Positions 30,222 to 37,287 of a stretch of 64,000 bases of DNA are shown piece by piece; positions within the stretch are counted from its first letter, which is position 1; each line of letters starts with the position of its first letter. The notes beneath the pieces were generated by a model. That model did no database searches. It was given only the letters and a program-made list of their open reading frames with translations, and was not told where the DNA came from. The DNA is from Gammaproteobacteria bacterium HGW-Gammaproteobacteria-1. GTDB lineage: Bacteria > Pseudomonadota > Gammaproteobacteria > Thiohalomonadales > Thiohalomonadaceae. Where the stretch lies: contig PGZL01000006.1 of NCBI GenBank assembly GCA_002840095.1, forward strand, positions 139,241 to 203,240, in the 5' to 3' direction. Position numbers and translations under genes: made by a program.

Positions 30222-31136
30222 TCATTCGGTCGGCAACACTCCTTCCAGGCGCTCGAAACAGTCCGTCCGCGCGCCATCGATGAACGCTTCCAGATAGGCA
30301 AGTTCCTGTTCTTCGCGGCGTACGGCGGCATAGAGGGTGCTCCAGAGGCCGTGTTCGCCGAGTGGTCTGGCGAGCACCTGGCCGGCGACGACGGCCTGGC
30401 TGGCGGCCCATTGCGGCAGGGCGGCGAGGCCCCGGCCGCTGGCGACCAGTTGCAGGATCATCACGGTCAGCTCGCTGGAGCGCCGTTCGACGGCGACGCC
30501 GGCGGGGTCGAGAAAGCGGCGGAACAGGTCGAGGCGGGTGGTATCCACCGGGTAGGTGATGAGGGTCTCGTCGGCGAGGTCCTGCGGTGCGATCCAGTTA
30601 CGCGCCGCCAGGCGGTGACGTGGCGGCAGCAGCAGCAGGTTCTGGTAGCGGAACAGCGGGCGATAGGTGATTGCCGCGTTGTCGTCGGGGTCGGCGGTGA
30701 CGACCAGATCGACCTCGTTTTGGGCGAGGGCCGCCAGCGGCTCGAAGCTGTGGGCCATGGAGATGTCCAGGGTCACCCGCGGCCATTGGTGGCGATAGTC
30801 TTCCAGCACTGGCATCAGCCAGTCGAAGCAACTGTGGCACTCCACGGCGAGGTGTAGCCGTCCGCCCTGGCCGCCGCGGATATGGCCGAGGTCGCGCTTG
30901 GCCTGGCGGATCAGCGGCAGTACCTCGTCAGCTAGGGTCAGCAGTCGCTCCCCGGCGGCGGTGAAGCGGGGCGGCCGGCTCTTGCGTTCGAAAAGCGTTA
31001 CCTCCAGCCGTTCTTCCAGCTCCTTGAGCTGGTGTGAAAGGGCTGATTGGGTCAGGTGCAGCCGCTCTGCGGCGCGTGCCAGATTGCCGCTATCGCGCAG
31101 GGCGGTAAGGCTGTGGAGGTGGTGCAGCTTTATCAT
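30222..31136 (-). CDS. metR: MetR, LysR-type regulator of methionine genes
   Basis: This 304-residue LysR-family activator has an N-terminal helix-turn-helix (LHSLTALRDSGNLARAAERLHLTQSALSHQLKELE) and a substrate-binding domain that in MetR senses homocysteine. It is divergent from metE with 100 bp between them, the classical arrangement, so it probably controls metE and itself. Confidence 0.9.
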   Translation of the reverse strand: MIKLHHLHSLTALRDSGNLARAAERLHLTQSALSHQLKELEERLEVTLFERKSRPPRFTAAGERLLTLADEVLPLIRQAKRDLGHIRGGQGGRLHLAVECHSCFDWLMPVLEDYRHQWPRVTLDISMAHSFEPLAALAQNEVDLVVTADPDDNAAITYRPLFRYQNLLLLPPRHRLAARNWIAPQDLADETLITYPVDTTRLDLFRRFLDPAGVAVERRSSELTVMILQLVASGRGLAALPQWAASQAVVAGQVLARPLGEHGLWSTLYAAVRREEQELAYLEAFIDGARTDCFERLEGVLPTE

Positions 31137-31236
31137 GAAAAAATCTCAAGTTAAATTCAAAAATTCATCGTTTGATTCATTTTAGCCCGCTCTCCAGACT
31201 AGGCGCAAACCGAATAACTGGAGAAGGAGTATCCCT
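31137..31236. promoter_or_regulatory. Divergent metR-metE promoter region
   Basis: This AT-rich 100-bp spacer has repeated TTCA/TGAA half-sites (around 31151-31182), the building block of MetR boxes (TGAA-N5-TTCA). No exact full-length box is present: the best candidate, beginning TGAAAAAATCTCA inside the metR start, has one mismatch. A GGAG site precedes metE. Confidence 0.5.
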
Positions 31237-33528
31237 ATGTGTGTCGCCCATTCCCTTGGTTTCCCCCGTATCGGTCATCGCCGCGAGCTGAAGTGGGCGC
31301 TGGAGTCCTACTGGAAGGGGGAGTCCGATCGAACCGCCCTGTTGGGAACCGCACGGCAGTTACGTGAGCGTCACTGGCGGCTTCAGCAGGAGGCGGGCCT
31401 GGACCATGTTCCGGTGGGGGATTTCTCGCTCTATGACCATGTTCTGGATCACAGTGTGATGTTCGGTGCGGTGCCGCCGCGCTTCGGTCAGGTGGAAGGG
31501 GCTGTCGATCTGGACACCTATTTCCGCATGGCCCGCGGACGCGCACCGAGCGGCGAGCCGACCCATGCCTGCGAGATGACCAAGTGGTTCGACACCAACT
31601 ACCACTACATCGTCCCGGAGCTGTACCGGGGCCAGACCTTCCACCTCGCCTCCAGCAAGCTGTTCGACGAGGTGACCGAAGCACAGGCGCTGGGGCTGAC
31701 CCCGCGCCCCGTGATTATCGGGCCGCTCACCTGGTTGTGGCTGGGCAAGGTCAAGGGTGAGGAGTTCGAGCGCCTCGATTTGCTCAATGCCCTGCTGCCA
31801 GTCTATGGCGATATCCTCTCCCGTCTGAAGGCGCAGGGGGTGGAGTGGGTACAGATCGACGAGCCGATCCTCGTCCTCGATCTGCCTTATCCCTGGAAGC
31901 GCGCCTTCGAGTCGGTCTACACCCGGCTCGGGGGCAATCGGCCAAACCTGCTGCTTACCACCTATTTCGGCGCGCTGGAGGACAATCTCAAACTCGCATG
32001 CCAATTACCCGTGGACGGGCTGCACGTGGACCTGATACGGGCATCCGAGCAACTGCAACAGGCGGTGGACTGGCTGCCTGGGCACAAGGTTCTCTCCGCT
32101 GGTGTCGTCGATGGTCGCAACATCTGGCGTAGCGACCTGTCACAAAAACTCGACCTTCTCGAGCCTCTGAATGAGCGCCTCGGCGACCGGCTCTGGCTTG
32201 CCCCCTCCTGTTCGCTACTGCACGTGCCGGTGGACCTGGACGGCGAAGAGCAGTTGGATGCGGAGCTGCGCGGCTGGCTCGCCTTCGCGGTGCAGAAGCT
32301 GGACGAGTTGCGCATCTTGCGGCGGGCCCTGGATCAGGGACGCGGCGCGGTGGCGGCGGAGCTGGCGGCCAGTGCGGCGGCGGTGGCGTCGCGTGGTAGC
32401 TCTGGGCGGTTGCACCGTCCCGATGTGCGCGCCCGCGTGGCGGCCATCGATGAGTCGATGGAGCGCCGCCGCGGCCCCTATCCGATCCGCGCCGAGGCCC
32501 ACAGGCAGCGCTTCCGCCTGCCGCCGTTTCCCACCACCACCATCGGCTCGTTCCCGCAGACCGCGGAGATTCGTGCTGCCCGCCGCGACTTCAAGGTCGG
32601 GCGTATCGACGCCGTCACCTACGAAGGCCTTATGCGCGAGCAGATCGCCCATGTCGTGCAGAAGCAGGAGGAGTACGGTCTCGACGTGCTGGTCCACGGC
32701 GAGCCCGAGCGCAACGACATGGTGGAGTACTTCGGCGAGCAGATGGACGGTTTCGCCTTCACCGCCAGCGGCTGGGTGCAGTCCTACGGCTCGCGTTGCG
32801 TCAAGCCGCCGCTGCTCTACGGCGACGTGGCGCGACCGGAGCCGATGACGGTGGCGTGGGTGCGTTATGCGCAGTCGCTGACGGACAGACCGATGAAGGG
32901 CATGCTCACCGGGCCGGTGACGATCCTGAACTGGTCCTTCGTGCGCGACGACCAGCCGCGCGCCGACACCTGCAGGCAGCTGGCGCTGGCGATCCGCGAC
33001 GAGGTGCTGGACCTGGAGCGGGCCGGGATCGGCATCATCCAGATCGACGAGGCCGCGCTGCGCGAGGGTTTGCCGCTGCGTAAGGGGCAGTGGAAAGGTT
33101 ATCTGGACTGGGCGGTCGGTGCTTTCAGGCTCGCTGCCAACGGTGTGCGCAACGAGACTCAGATCCACACCCATATGTGCTACTCGGAGTTCAACGACAT
33201 CATCGAGTCCATCACCGCGATGGATGCCGATGTGATCACCATCGAGACCGCGCGCTCGGATATGGAGCTGCTCGACGTATTCAAGGAGTTCCACTACCCG
33301 AACGAGATCGGCCCCGGCGTCTACGACATCCACTCGCCCAACGTACCGGAGGTTGGGCAGATGGTGCGGCTGATGGAGTTGGCCGACAAGCGTATCCCAG
33401 CCGAACGGCTGTGGGTCAACCCCGATTGCGGCCTGAAGACCCGCGGCTGGCCCGAGGTGGAGGCGGCCCTGCGCAACATGGTGGAGGTGGCTCGCCAGCT
33501 GCGTGAGGGGAGTGTCGCCGTGGGCTGA
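31237..33528 (+). CDS. metE: MetE, B12-independent methionine synthase
   Basis: MetE moves a methyl group from 5-methyltetrahydropteroyltriglutamate to homocysteine without cobalamin. The 763-residue protein has the usual two-barrel structure: the N-terminal [17 protein letters not shown] start and, in the C-terminal catalytic barrel, the zinc ligands HTHMCYSEF and NPDCGLKTR, and [14 protein letters not shown] ribosome binding site precedes the ATG. Together with the neighbouring riboswitch-controlled reductases it makes this segment a B12-independent fallback set. Confidence 0.97.
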
Positions 33529-33702
33529 ATCAGCGGTGAAAAAAACGCGGGCAGGCGTCCACAACATCCCTTGGGGTAACTTGATGAAGGTAAACTCCTT
33601 TCTTCAGGTTCCCTAGAGATATTCTAAGTTGTCTTACTACTGCCATAAACCCTTACTTATGAGGTAGAATCGCCCGGTCAACAATTGCTACGTCAGCACG
33701 TC

Positions 33703-34878
33703 ATGTCTGGAAAGAATAATAAAAATTCCCGGCATGCACTCGACCCACATCGTGTGGGATGTATCCGGCTGGCCCGTGCCCTGGAGCTGCGCCCTCGGGC
33801 GTTTGAGCGAATGGTGCGGGAGATGGAGGTTTCGCCGACATTTGTGGCAGTGAGGCCCTATGTGCATGTGGGACAGGTGATGGAGACAACCCTTGCCGCC
33901 AGCGGCAGGGTTGACCGTGGGCGCATGCTGCCCATAGCCTGGTTCGACGGGGCTGGGGCGTTTCGGTACACCTCCGAGTTTTTTACCCGGCATTACGGTT
34001 TTGAGACAGAGGCGTTGTCCAGCCTCGGCCCAGCCGTGGGAAGCCTCCTGCAACAGATGCGGGCGATAAACAGCCGCAATCTACTCACCACCAGCCTGCT
34101 GCGTTCCCTGGTACGATTGCAGCGGGATTTTCTTGAAACCCGCGATCCGCTCGCGCTCGAGACGCTGGCATTGGACGAGCTTGCCGCCGACATCAACGCC
34201 GATCCGCTGTGCCCGATCACGGCAGACGCCAGCCGCCTGTCGCGCCTGATGCGCCACCTGACGCTTGGTTTGGCGGACGGTGAGATGGTAATGGCGCCCA
34301 CCTTATGCCCGCGCCCGCGCGAATTGCACCGGCGCTACGTGGACAGTGTGGTCCGCGCCGAACAGGCGGCTCTGCTTGAGCATGCCGACACGGGCGCTCT
34401 CAGCGATGACGCAATCGCGATGGAGGTACAGGAGCGTTACGGCATGGTGCTGTCCCGGCGTACAGTGGCCAACGTCCGCCGTGATTTGGGTATCCCCTGC
34501 AGCCGCGGACGGGGGGCGAATGATGGATATCTGGGGGCAACCCACGGGTTCAGCCCATTGCAGCTACTGGCACGCGAGGTGGTGCGTACGGCGGCGCCGG
34601 CAGTGGGCGGCGTCTACGAACTACATGCCCGCGGTCCCGACGCCCGGCGGGCTGGCGTCATCTACATTGGCAGCGCCGGTGACCTGCGCAAGCGGTTGAT
34701 GGACCATCTGCGCGGCACCGGTACCAACACCTGCCTGGCGGCCCATGTCGCCGAAGGCCGGGTGTGGTTCCGCTATCGGCCCGTGGTTCATCGCTGGCGC
34801 GAGACCGAGCGGCAGGTGTACCGGGCATTTAGGGAAAGTTTCGGCGACCGGCCGGCCTGCAACCGGATGAGCCCCTGA
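33703..34878 (+). CDS. RpoN DNA-binding domain fused to a GIY-YIG nuclease-like domain
   Basis: This 391-residue protein starts at the ATG at 33703. Residues about 120-270 resemble the C-terminal DNA-binding half of sigma-54: INSRNLLTTSLLRSLVRLQR, LSDDAIAMEVQERYGMVLSR and the RpoN-box-like SRRTVANVRRDLGIPCSRGR. The sigma-54 N-terminal activator and core-binding parts are missing. Residues about 303-388 form a GIY-YIG domain: GVYEL, then VIYIGSAGDLRKRLMDHL with its arginine, and a late ETE...PACN with the expected glutamate. I know of no characterised protein with this combination. A sequence-specific DNA endonuclease or a regulator with a DNA-cutting arm are both possible. Confidence 0.8.
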   Translation: MSGKNNKNSRHALDPHRVGCIRLARALELRPRAFERMVREMEVSPTFVAVRPYVHVGQVMETTLAASGRVDRGRMLPIAWFDGAGAFRYTSEFFTRHYGFETEALSSLGPAVGSLLQQMRAINSRNLLTTSLLRSLVRLQRDFLETRDPLALETLALDELAADINADPLCPITADASRLSRLMRHLTLGLADGEMVMAPTLCPRPRELHRRYVDSVVRAEQAALLEHADTGALSDDAIAMEVQERYGMVLSRRTVANVRRDLGIPCSRGRGANDGYLGATHGFSPLQLLAREVVRTAAPAVGGVYELHARGPDARRAGVIYIGSAGDLRKRLMDHLRGTGTNTCLAAHVAEGRVWFRYRPVVHRWRETERQVYRAFRESFGDRPACNRMSP

Positions 34879-34890
34879 CAGGGAGGGACG

Positions 34891-36960
34891 ATGACAGCGA
34901 TGGATTCGATGGACGCCACAGCGCCGCTTCGGCTACAGGACTTCAAGGAATACGCCGAACGTGTGTTCGCCAATATTCCCAGTGGATTGGTCATCCTTTC
35001 GGCAAGGCTGCGTATCCTGACCGTCAATCGTGCCTTTCTGCAAATGTTCGGTGTCCCCCAAGGGGATGTCGAGGGACGCTTTTCGCATGAAGTAATTTCG
35101 GCAGAGGGGTTTGCCGACCAGTTAGCTGCGGTACTGGGCGGCAGCGTGCCGCGGGCCGATGGCATGCTGCTGATGCGGGTGTACGGCGGCGAGGAGCGCC
35201 TTATGCGCTATGCCGTCACTGGTATGTACCTTGAAGAAGAAGAAGAAGAAGAAGAAGAAGCGCGTTTGCTCGTCGCGCTCGAAGATATCACCGAACAGGA
35301 ACGCGCTTTTCAGGCGCTGGCCCGCTCTGAGGCCCGTCTGGCTGAGGCCCAACGCATCGCCCGGCTGGGGCATTGGGAATGGAATGTCGCCACCGGCGAG
35401 TTGTGGTGGTCCGACGAGGTGTACAACATCTTCGAGCGGGAGAAGGGGCGCTTCGTCCCCGGTTACGAATCCTTCCAAGCCTGTCTCCATCCGGATGATC
35501 GTGCCCGCGTCGAGGCCGCCGTGCAGAAATCGATCGAAGACGGCAGTGACTACCGCCTCGACCACCGCATCGTGCTGCCCGGCGGCGCCGTACGCCACGT
35601 GCACGAACAGGCGCGCTGCATATACGGTGTGGATGGCACCGTCGAGCGAATGGTGGGCACGGTTCAGGACATCACCGATCGCAAGGAGACGGAGGCGCGC
35701 CTGGCCCATTTAGCGCACCATGATCCGCTGACCTGTCTGCCCAATCGCATGCTGCTGCGCGACCGTATCAGCCAGGCCATTGCCTACGGCCGCCGGCACG
35801 ACCGGTTGGTGGCGGTGCTGTTTCTCGATCTTGACCGCTTCAAGCGTATCAACGACAGTCTGGGGCACGATGTGGGCGATCGCCTGTTGCAGGCCATCGC
35901 TGAACGTCTGCGCAAGTCAGTGCGCGACGGCGATACGGTGGCCCGGCTGGGCGGCGACGAATTCGCCATCGCCCTGACCGACGTCGCCGATGTGGACGAC
36001 GTGGCCAAACTGGCGCGCAAGCTGCTCAACGCCATCAATCAACCCATCGTCATCGAAGGGCGCGAATTCTATGCCACCGCCAGCATCGGTATCAGCCTGT
36101 TTCCCCACGACGGCGGCGACGTGGAAACCCTGCTGAAGAACGCCGACACCGCCATGGAGGAAATGGACTTCAACATCCGCGCCCATTTGGAACTGGAGCA
36201 GTCGCTGCGGGGCGCCCTGGAGCGTGGAGAATTCGAGGTGCACTACCAGCCCCAAATACGCCTGCAGGACGACACGGTGACCGGTGTGGAGGCGTTGCTG
36301 CGCTGGAACCGGCCCGATGGCAAATTTATCGGACCGGATATATTCATCCCTGTCTTGGAAGAAACCGGCCTGATTGTGGAGGTTGGCGCCTGGGTGATGC
36401 GTCGCGCCTGCGCCGACGCGGTGCGCTGGAACAAAACCCTCGGACGCGAGCTACTGGTGGCCGTCAACCTGTCACGGCGCCAGTTCGACGATGCACACCT
36501 GGCGGAGACGGTAGAGGAGGTGTTGCGAGAATCGGGACTGCCGCCGGCGCTTCTGGAATTGGAGGTTACCGAAAGCGTCGTGATGTCGAATACGGCGCGG
36601 GCAGGGCATGTCATGGAGACCCTGCGTGGCACGGGTGTTCACCTGGCGATGGACGATTTCGGCACCGGCTATTCCTCCCTGGTTTATCTCAAGCGCTTCC
36701 CCCTGGATCGTCTCAAAATTGATAAGGAGTTTGTGCGCGATATCGGGGTCGACGCCAATGACGATGCCATCGTACGCACGATCATTGCTCTTGCGGAAAA
36801 TCTGGGGCTTGAGGCCGTGGCCGAGGGTGTGGAAACGGAGCTTCAGCGCGATTTTCTTCGGCGCCATGGCTGTCAGCTTGCCCAGGGGTATCTTTACAGC
36901 CGGCCATTACCCATGGCGGAGTTGGAGGCATTTCTTGCTCGTGAGACGATTCAAGGTTGA
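34891..36960 (+). CDS. PAS-PAS-GGDEF-EAL cyclic-di-GMP enzyme with poly-Glu stretch
   Basis: This 689-residue cytoplasmic protein has two PAS domains (about 18-135 and 150-265), a GGDEF domain with intact GGDEF at 354-358, and an EAL domain with EAL at 467-469, so both synthesis and breakdown of cyclic-di-GMP are possible. Nine consecutive glutamates lie at the end of the first PAS domain. The end of the GGDEF domain reads NADTAMEEMDFNIRAHLELE; the usual YxAKxxGRNxYQFF segment after NADTAM is missing, so the GGDEF half may be impaired. It follows the RpoN/GIY-YIG gene by 12 bp and may be co-transcribed. Confidence 0.92.
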   Translation: MTAMDSMDATAPLRLQDFKEYAERVFANIPSGLVILSARLRILTVNRAFLQMFGVPQGDVEGRFSHEVISAEGFADQLAAVLGGSVPRADGMLLMRVYGGEERLMRYAVTGMYLEEEEEEEEEARLLVALEDITEQERAFQALARSEARLAEAQRIARLGHWEWNVATGELWWSDEVYNIFEREKGRFVPGYESFQACLHPDDRARVEAAVQKSIEDGSDYRLDHRIVLPGGAVRHVHEQARCIYGVDGTVERMVGTVQDITDRKETEARLAHLAHHDPLTCLPNRMLLRDRISQAIAYGRRHDRLVAVLFLDLDRFKRINDSLGHDVGDRLLQAIAERLRKSVRDGDTVARLGGDEFAIALTDVADVDDVAKLARKLLNAINQPIVIEGREFYATASIGISLFPHDGGDVETLLKNADTAMEEMDFNIRAHLELEQSLRGALERGEFEVHYQPQIRLQDDTVTGVEALLRWNRPDGKFIGPDIFIPVLEETGLIVEVGAWVMRRACADAVRWNKTLGRELLVAVNLSRRQFDDAHLAETVEEVLRESGLPPALLELEVTESVVMSNTARAGHVMETLRGTGVHLAMDDFGTGYSSLVYLKRFPLDRLKIDKEFVRDIGVDANDDAIVRTIIALAENLGLEAVAEGVETELQRDFLRRHGCQLAQGYLYSRPLPMAELEAFLARETIQG
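35233..35259 (+). repeat. (GAA)9 trinucleotide repeat inside the GGDEF-EAL gene
   Basis: Nine perfect GAA codons encode nine glutamates between the first PAS domain and its final strand. Such a tract can change length by slippage without shifting the frame, so it could vary linker length between strains. Confidence 0.9.
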
Positions 36961-37083: not shown

Positions 37084-37287
37084 ATGAACACGAACCAGAT
37101 CAAGGCTATTGCCAAGAAAATGCACGTTGATACGACAGCGGCGGACAAAGCAGAACTTGTGCACCGCATCCAGCGTGCAGAGGGAAACTTTGACTGCTTT
37201 GCCTCGCCAATCAATGGTATATGTGATCAGACAGGTTGCCTCTGGCGAGACGACTGCTTTGAGTCCGCTAGGATTGGTGCGCACTAA
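37084..37287 (+). CDS. Small SAP-like protein with conserved Cys motif
   Basis: The 67-residue protein has an excellent ribosome binding site (AGGAGG, 8 bp before the ATG). The N-terminal half (IKAIAKKMHVDTTAADKAELVHRIQ) resembles a SAP helix-extension-helix motif, and the second half has AEGNFDCFASPINGICDQTG followed by CLWRDDC, with four cysteines. I recall similar small proteins as common but uncharacterised in proteobacteria. Function is unknown; nucleic-acid binding is a guess from the SAP-like half. Confidence 0.7.
   Translation: MNTNQIKAIAKKMHVDTTAADKAELVHRIQRAEGNFDCFASPINGICDQTGCLWRDDCFESARIGAH

Follow-up and report, generated by a model that had tools for sequence, protein, structure and literature searches.

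A gene for a sigma-54-like protein with a predicted GIY-YIG nuclease domain, linked to motif-flanked microsatellites of a sensor gene

Phase variation at bacterial microsatellites is explained by passive slippage. In diversity-generating retroelements and phase-variation invertases, a dedicated enzyme diversifies a linked gene, and in the Penelope-like elements a GIY-YIG endonuclease is associated with microsatellite targets; in these respects both resemble the locus described below, as we model it. To our knowledge, no dedicated site-specific nuclease has been described in combination with the microsatellites of a gene linked to it. The promoters of sigma-54 (RpoN) carry conserved GG and TGC elements at -24 and -12 (PMC3844500), read by the RpoN box at -24 and the helix-turn-helix (HTH) motif at -12 (PMC7057263). 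We discuss here a bacterial cassette in which a sigma-54-like DNA-binding region, a GIY-YIG domain and microsatellites occur together, and which lies in a 64,000-nucleotide stretch of DNA (the window) from Gammaproteobacteria bacterium HGW-Gammaproteobacteria-1 (contig PGZL01000006.1, positions 139,241 to 203,240). Its features are:

33611..33702, + strand: gene 1 leader, common to the second copy in the assembly (blastn between copies); left cassette boundary
33703..34878, + strand: gene 1, Sigma54_DBD-GIY-YIG protein, 391 aa (open reading frame, Pfam, AlphaFold model and fold match)
34057..34512, + strand: sigma-54 DNA-binding part, residues 119-270, with extra-long helix, HTH and RpoN box (Pfam, hhalign)
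34570..34866, + strand: GIY-YIG domain, about residues 290-388, with G303-V-Y305, Y321-I-G323, R331, E369 and N387 (family invariance, UvrC fold match)
34891..36960, + strand: gene 2, PAS-PAS-GGDEF-EAL signalling protein, 689 aa, starting 12 bp after gene 1 (Pfam; linkage conserved across loci)
35220..35234, + strand: site B, TGGTATGTACCTTGA, a -24/-12-like motif (TGG-N8-TTGC in sister copies; -12 GC changed to GA in the window)
35233..35260, + strand: microsatellite (GAA)9, encoding poly-Glu in the gene 2 PAS domain (7 and 6 units in sister copies)

The reading frame of gene 1 is intact, and its product had been read in the initial annotation as a sigma-54 DNA-binding half fused to a GIY-YIG domain; profile searches support both domains. 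The Pfam Sigma54_DBD profile matches residues 119-270 with an E-value of 4.8e-10 (39.8 bits, cut-off 22.8), and hhalign aligns family residues 15-278 with RpoN 257-510 at 97% probability, the RpoN sequences being drawn from the sigma-54-like loci found by the gene 1 family profile; in 135 of 369 genomes (the family's own two excluded) this profile picks up open frames resembling sigma-54. The helix SRRTVANVRRDLGIP, singled out earlier as RpoN-box-like, does lie in the RpoN-box region. An AlphaFold model of the protein (mean pLDDT 82) matches sigma-54 over residues 11-274 (Z 14.3), with residues 71-270 predicted to correspond to sigma-54 269-472, and its residues 290-386 fit the GIY-YIG domain of UvrC (Z 8.9, rmsd 2.0). 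Pfam GIY-YIG is sub-threshold in the window copy (E 0.017), reaches E <= 0.1 in 21 of 21 family members scanned, and in a plasmid homologue exceeds the gathering cut-off (26.1 against 22.6 bits). The GVY and YIG positions, R331, E369 and N387 are invariant across the family; we take Y321, R331, E369 and N387 to be the counterparts of the catalytic Tyr, Arg, Glu and Asn of UvrC. By modelled fold and by motif, the gene 1 product is a predicted GIY-YIG nuclease. Every relative ends in the same six residues, CNRMSP, a conservation beyond the apparent need of a GIY-YIG fold.

The claim that the activator- and core-binding parts of sigma-54 are absent needs to be narrowed. Matching begins at about sigma-54 residue 257-269 in both the hhalign and the fold comparison, the core-binding domain is incomplete, its N-terminal subdomain being missing, and Pfam at E <= 1 finds no core-binding or activator-interacting domain; the structural match nevertheless enters the core-binding region, and in the model the protein retains the extra-long helix along with part of the C-terminal end of that region. 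The sigma-54-like part is larger than first stated. It may even extend to region I, which a modelled N-terminal hook matches weakly (Z 4.7) and with no support from sequence, so that the first ~60 residues may form a region-I-like hook.

About 25 relatives of gene 1 were found, mostly betaproteobacterial. The window's own assembly holds the gene twice (92% identical, with different flanks), a genus-mate of the window organism holds one copy, and two betaproteobacterial plasmids carry relatives annotated merely as ‘GIY-YIG nuclease family protein’; another 20 loci, mostly from Betaproteobacteria, include Thiobacillus, Polaromonas, Rhodoferax, Sideroxydans and Glaciimonas, a 21st match (L030) being left out of this count since it covers the sigma-54 part only. 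A viral origin was rejected, no relative having been found among IMG/VR contigs or phages, and the few motif matches in viral contigs, all lacking gene 1, look like chance. Membership of a defence system was also set aside, a defence library having given a weak match to the GIY-YIG part only. The cassettes of L012 and L013, from a Thiobacillus isolate assembly and a Polaromonas metagenome-assembled genome (MAG), respectively, are 99.9% identical, which reflects either recent transfer or mis-binned or contaminant DNA.

The next same-strand gene after gene 1 is nearly always a large sensor, either a PAS/globin GGDEF-EAL protein or a histidine kinase. Among 16 gene 2 products scanned, PAS occurs in 15, GGDEF and EAL in 13, protoglobin in eight and a PilJ-type histidine kinase in two; the histidine-kinase genes also bear site B, as AGG-N8-TTGC. 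In the second copy of the window's assembly (L086, G000:C24), gene 1 is intact and gene 2 is broken in GGDEF by a ~60-bp deletion ~2.3 kb after the gene 1 start. A small open reading frame (MNTNQIKAIAKKMHV...) follows gene 2 at about 37084-37287 in the window, inside the segment homologous to that second copy, and may be part of the cassette.

The cassette motif, TGG-N8-TTGC, has the -24/-12 layout of sigma-54 with GG-N10-GC spacing and is followed directly 3′ by a microsatellite. At site A, which lies between genes 1 and 2 in the loci from other genera than the window's, TGG-N8-TTGCGC precedes (AAGC)3-9, with ~30 units in one genome and an overall range upstream of gene 2 of (GCAA)3-32; the identical loci L012 and L013 have N9 there in place of N8. 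At site B, found in 21 loci and missing from several others, the motif lies inside gene 2 and precedes in-frame (GAA)6-14, which encodes poly-Glu in the PAS domain. The window genus has site B alone. Sister copies of the window cassette carry TGGTATGTACCTTGCA with (GAA)7 and (GAA)6, whereas the window carries TGGTATGTACCTTGAA with (GAA)9 (35220-35260), its -12 half having decayed from GC to GA; this (GAA)9 is the only tri- or tetranucleotide array of at least five units in the window. A translational on/off switch, in which the AAGC array would be read from an xTG in site A, was rejected since the frames are inconsistent across loci, and no RNA elements were found in the cassettes.

The 285 kb of loci contain 113 TGG-N8-TTGC strings, 32 of them immediately next to a microsatellite, as many as there are cassette sites of that form. 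Cassette sites also account for 44 of the 45 tri- or tetranucleotide arrays of at least five units in the loci and the window as a whole (two with N replacing the left side and one missed by the script on the reverse strand, where the motif is readable); the exception is GCG x5 in L014. Genome-wide figures, which rest on pattern searches, agree: in 23 carrier genomes or records the motif patterns match nearly only cassettes, with reversed-pattern controls giving zero, and in a sample of 399 genomes from a single order the five with site B all carry gene 1 and only one other genome has gene 1, as a truncated copy, a pattern owed in part to physical linkage, the reversed control for site B again giving zero. 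Unlinked copies of TTGCGCAAGCAAGC in three genomes lack the TGG. Mere protein conservation does not account for site B, whose Leu codon is CTT in 21 of 21 genes that otherwise use CTT at 4-18% and is the only single-codon column among seven invariant Leu columns, the others having mixed codons; selection therefore acts on the DNA, beyond the protein alone. Whatever the mechanism, the three-way association of gene 1, a -24/-12-like motif and a microsatellite needs explanation.

Repeat number is the sole difference between several otherwise identical cassettes. Over 3,997 bp, L027 and L028 have 0 mismatches and only one GAA unit sets them apart; L005 and L028, also free of mismatches (3,981 bp), are separated by one AAGC and five GAA units. 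Over ~4 kb these three cassettes vary only in unit numbers at sites A and B; one AAGC unit is likewise the sole indel between L022 and L025 and between L023 and L025. The arrays are therefore the fastest-changing positions of the cassette, variation that slippage alone could also yield. L010 has DNA in common with L011 and L013 from the start of gene 1 through the end of the array, beyond which the gene 2s are unrelated, and breaks therefore occur there. On the left, blastn homology between the two copies in the window's assembly stops sharply at ~33611, and the boundaries are sharp in other compared loci too; a search of genus-mates for the empty site of the window insertion did not find the flank. 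Exceptionally long arrays, (GCAA)28 and (GCAA)32, occur at the two G451 loci (L118 and L119), one of the two combining (GCAA)28 and (GAA)9 with a gene 1 remnant only while an intact gene 1 lies elsewhere in the genome; in G517, where gene 1 is truncated, there are six GCAA units. A LysR-metE pair lies upstream of the cassette both in the window (30222-33528) and in a Sideroxydans MAG (L016, 3357-6673), whose gene 1 proteins are ~37% identical, and this position is either a shared insertion spot or a coincidence.

The most economical account, which we regard as about equally likely to prove right or wrong, is that of a nuclease acting on its own cassette, which makes the arrays unstable and in this way diversifies the linked sensor. 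The gene 1 product would be a site-specific nuclease whose sigma-54-derived part recognises TGG-N8-TTGC in its own cassette and whose GIY-YIG domain introduces a nick or cut at the tandem repeats next to this motif, and repair of the break would gain or lose repeat units. Changes at site A would vary the leader of the linked c-di-GMP or histidine-kinase signalling gene and those at site B a poly-Glu loop within the gene 2 PAS sensor, making the cassette a contingency locus whose variation comes from a dedicated mutator enzyme and not from passive slippage. Against this stand the ability of microsatellites to vary unaided by slippage, the window copy, with no site A and no -12 GC in site B, and the loci that have no site B. 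Moreover, with the C-terminus of sigma-54 positioned near -24, a nuclease at that end of the protein has no obvious way of reaching repeats downstream of -12, and 28 GCAA units persist at the locus where gene 1 survives only as a remnant, for which the nuclease model requires action in trans or slow decay.

Might the sites simply be sigma-54 promoters, with passively slipping contingency repeats and gene 1 as an unrelated neighbour? The spacing of the motif fits, and simple repeats do vary passively in many bacteria (PMC11868660). Scored with a matrix from 29 Salmonella sigma-54 sites (PMC3844500), however, the cassette sites reach only -7 to 9 and the training promoters at least 16.4, too low for ordinary promoters; site B, moreover, is intragenic, and motif with repeat hardly occurs in genomes that lack gene 1. 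We consider this reading highly improbable. The sites keep only the GG/GC frame, as would be expected of a diverged reader and not of RpoN, and the likely targets of the protein are therefore its own cassette sites and not promoters generally. To that extent the earlier proposal of a nuclease directed to -24/-12 promoter sequences must be revised: aim at a -24/-12-like sequence has strong circumstantial support from the sites in its own cassette, each abutting a microsatellite, and sigma-54 promoters at large are unlikely targets.

A regulator of transcription would make a different use of the same sites, binding A and B so as to repress gene 2 or adjust its expression, perhaps by blocking sigma-54 polymerase; the repeats would then arise by slippage and either determine spacing or be tolerated, and nuclease activity would be secondary. 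The sigma-54 DNA-binding domain with its -24/-12-like sites, the place of site A in the gene 2 leader and a partner that is nearly always a signalling gene all speak for it, yet it leaves the hypervariable arrays without a reason and sits poorly with the invariance of the catalytic GIY-YIG residues and with sites that both abut microsatellites, one of them intragenic; we deem it unlikely, if still worth serious attention. A selfish or mobile homing-type module, in which targeting of TGG-N8-TTGC and repeats by the nuclease would propagate either gene 1 or the entire cassette, with the repeats left as repair scars, would explain the sharp left boundaries, the gene 2s swapped at the array, and the presence of nearly identical cassettes in more than one host and also on a plasmid. 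Homing, though, would interrupt its target with gene 1, whereas here intact sites lie beside gene 1, and no reservoir of targets is seen, the site B pattern not being found in genomes without gene 1 in the 399-genome sample; we rate such a module as improbable. Our full reading, in which a sigma-54 DNA-binding half has been recruited to steer a GIY-YIG nuclease to microsatellites of a linked sensor, for an enzymatic, programmed diversification of repeat length in c-di-GMP or kinase signalling, is tentative and, in our estimate, falls slightly short of an even chance.

If correct, it would mean that a linked sequence-specific nuclease drives repeat change, a new mechanism of targeted genome diversification, that a sigma-54-derived DNA-binding module has been reused outside transcription, and that cells diversify their own sensor through enzyme-driven changes in repeat length. 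In literature that included few subscription journals, we found nothing relevant on a Sigma54-GIY-YIG architecture and no described counterpart, and the newness of the mechanism depends on experiment. The nearest systems each share a part of it. Like sigma-54, the gene 1 protein has the extra-long helix, the HTH and the RpoN-box region (by profile, hhalign and fold) and is associated with GG-N10-GC sites; unlike sigma-54, it is without the N-terminal core-binding subdomain, carries a nuclease domain and is accompanied by sites that are poor promoters. With GIY-YIG nucleases of the UvrC N-terminal domain, R.Eco29kI and I-TevI type it has the fold and catalytic positions in common, but its presumed targeting domain is a sigma-54 half, of which we found no description, and its candidate sites adjoin microsatellites. 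Diversity-generating retroelements and invertases differ in that no reverse transcriptase, template repeat or invertase was seen here, the variation being in repeat number, and Penelope-like elements in being eukaryotic retroelements, no reverse transcriptase having been identified in the cassettes. With its hypervariable arrays in and near a gene, the cassette has the array layout of a simple-sequence contingency locus, and it resembles those of Haemophilus, Neisseria and Campylobacter (PMC11868660) in its variable tetra- and trinucleotide arrays in leader and coding region; there, however, slippage and recombination operate, whereas here a linked predicted nuclease gene and a fixed motif accompany the arrays.
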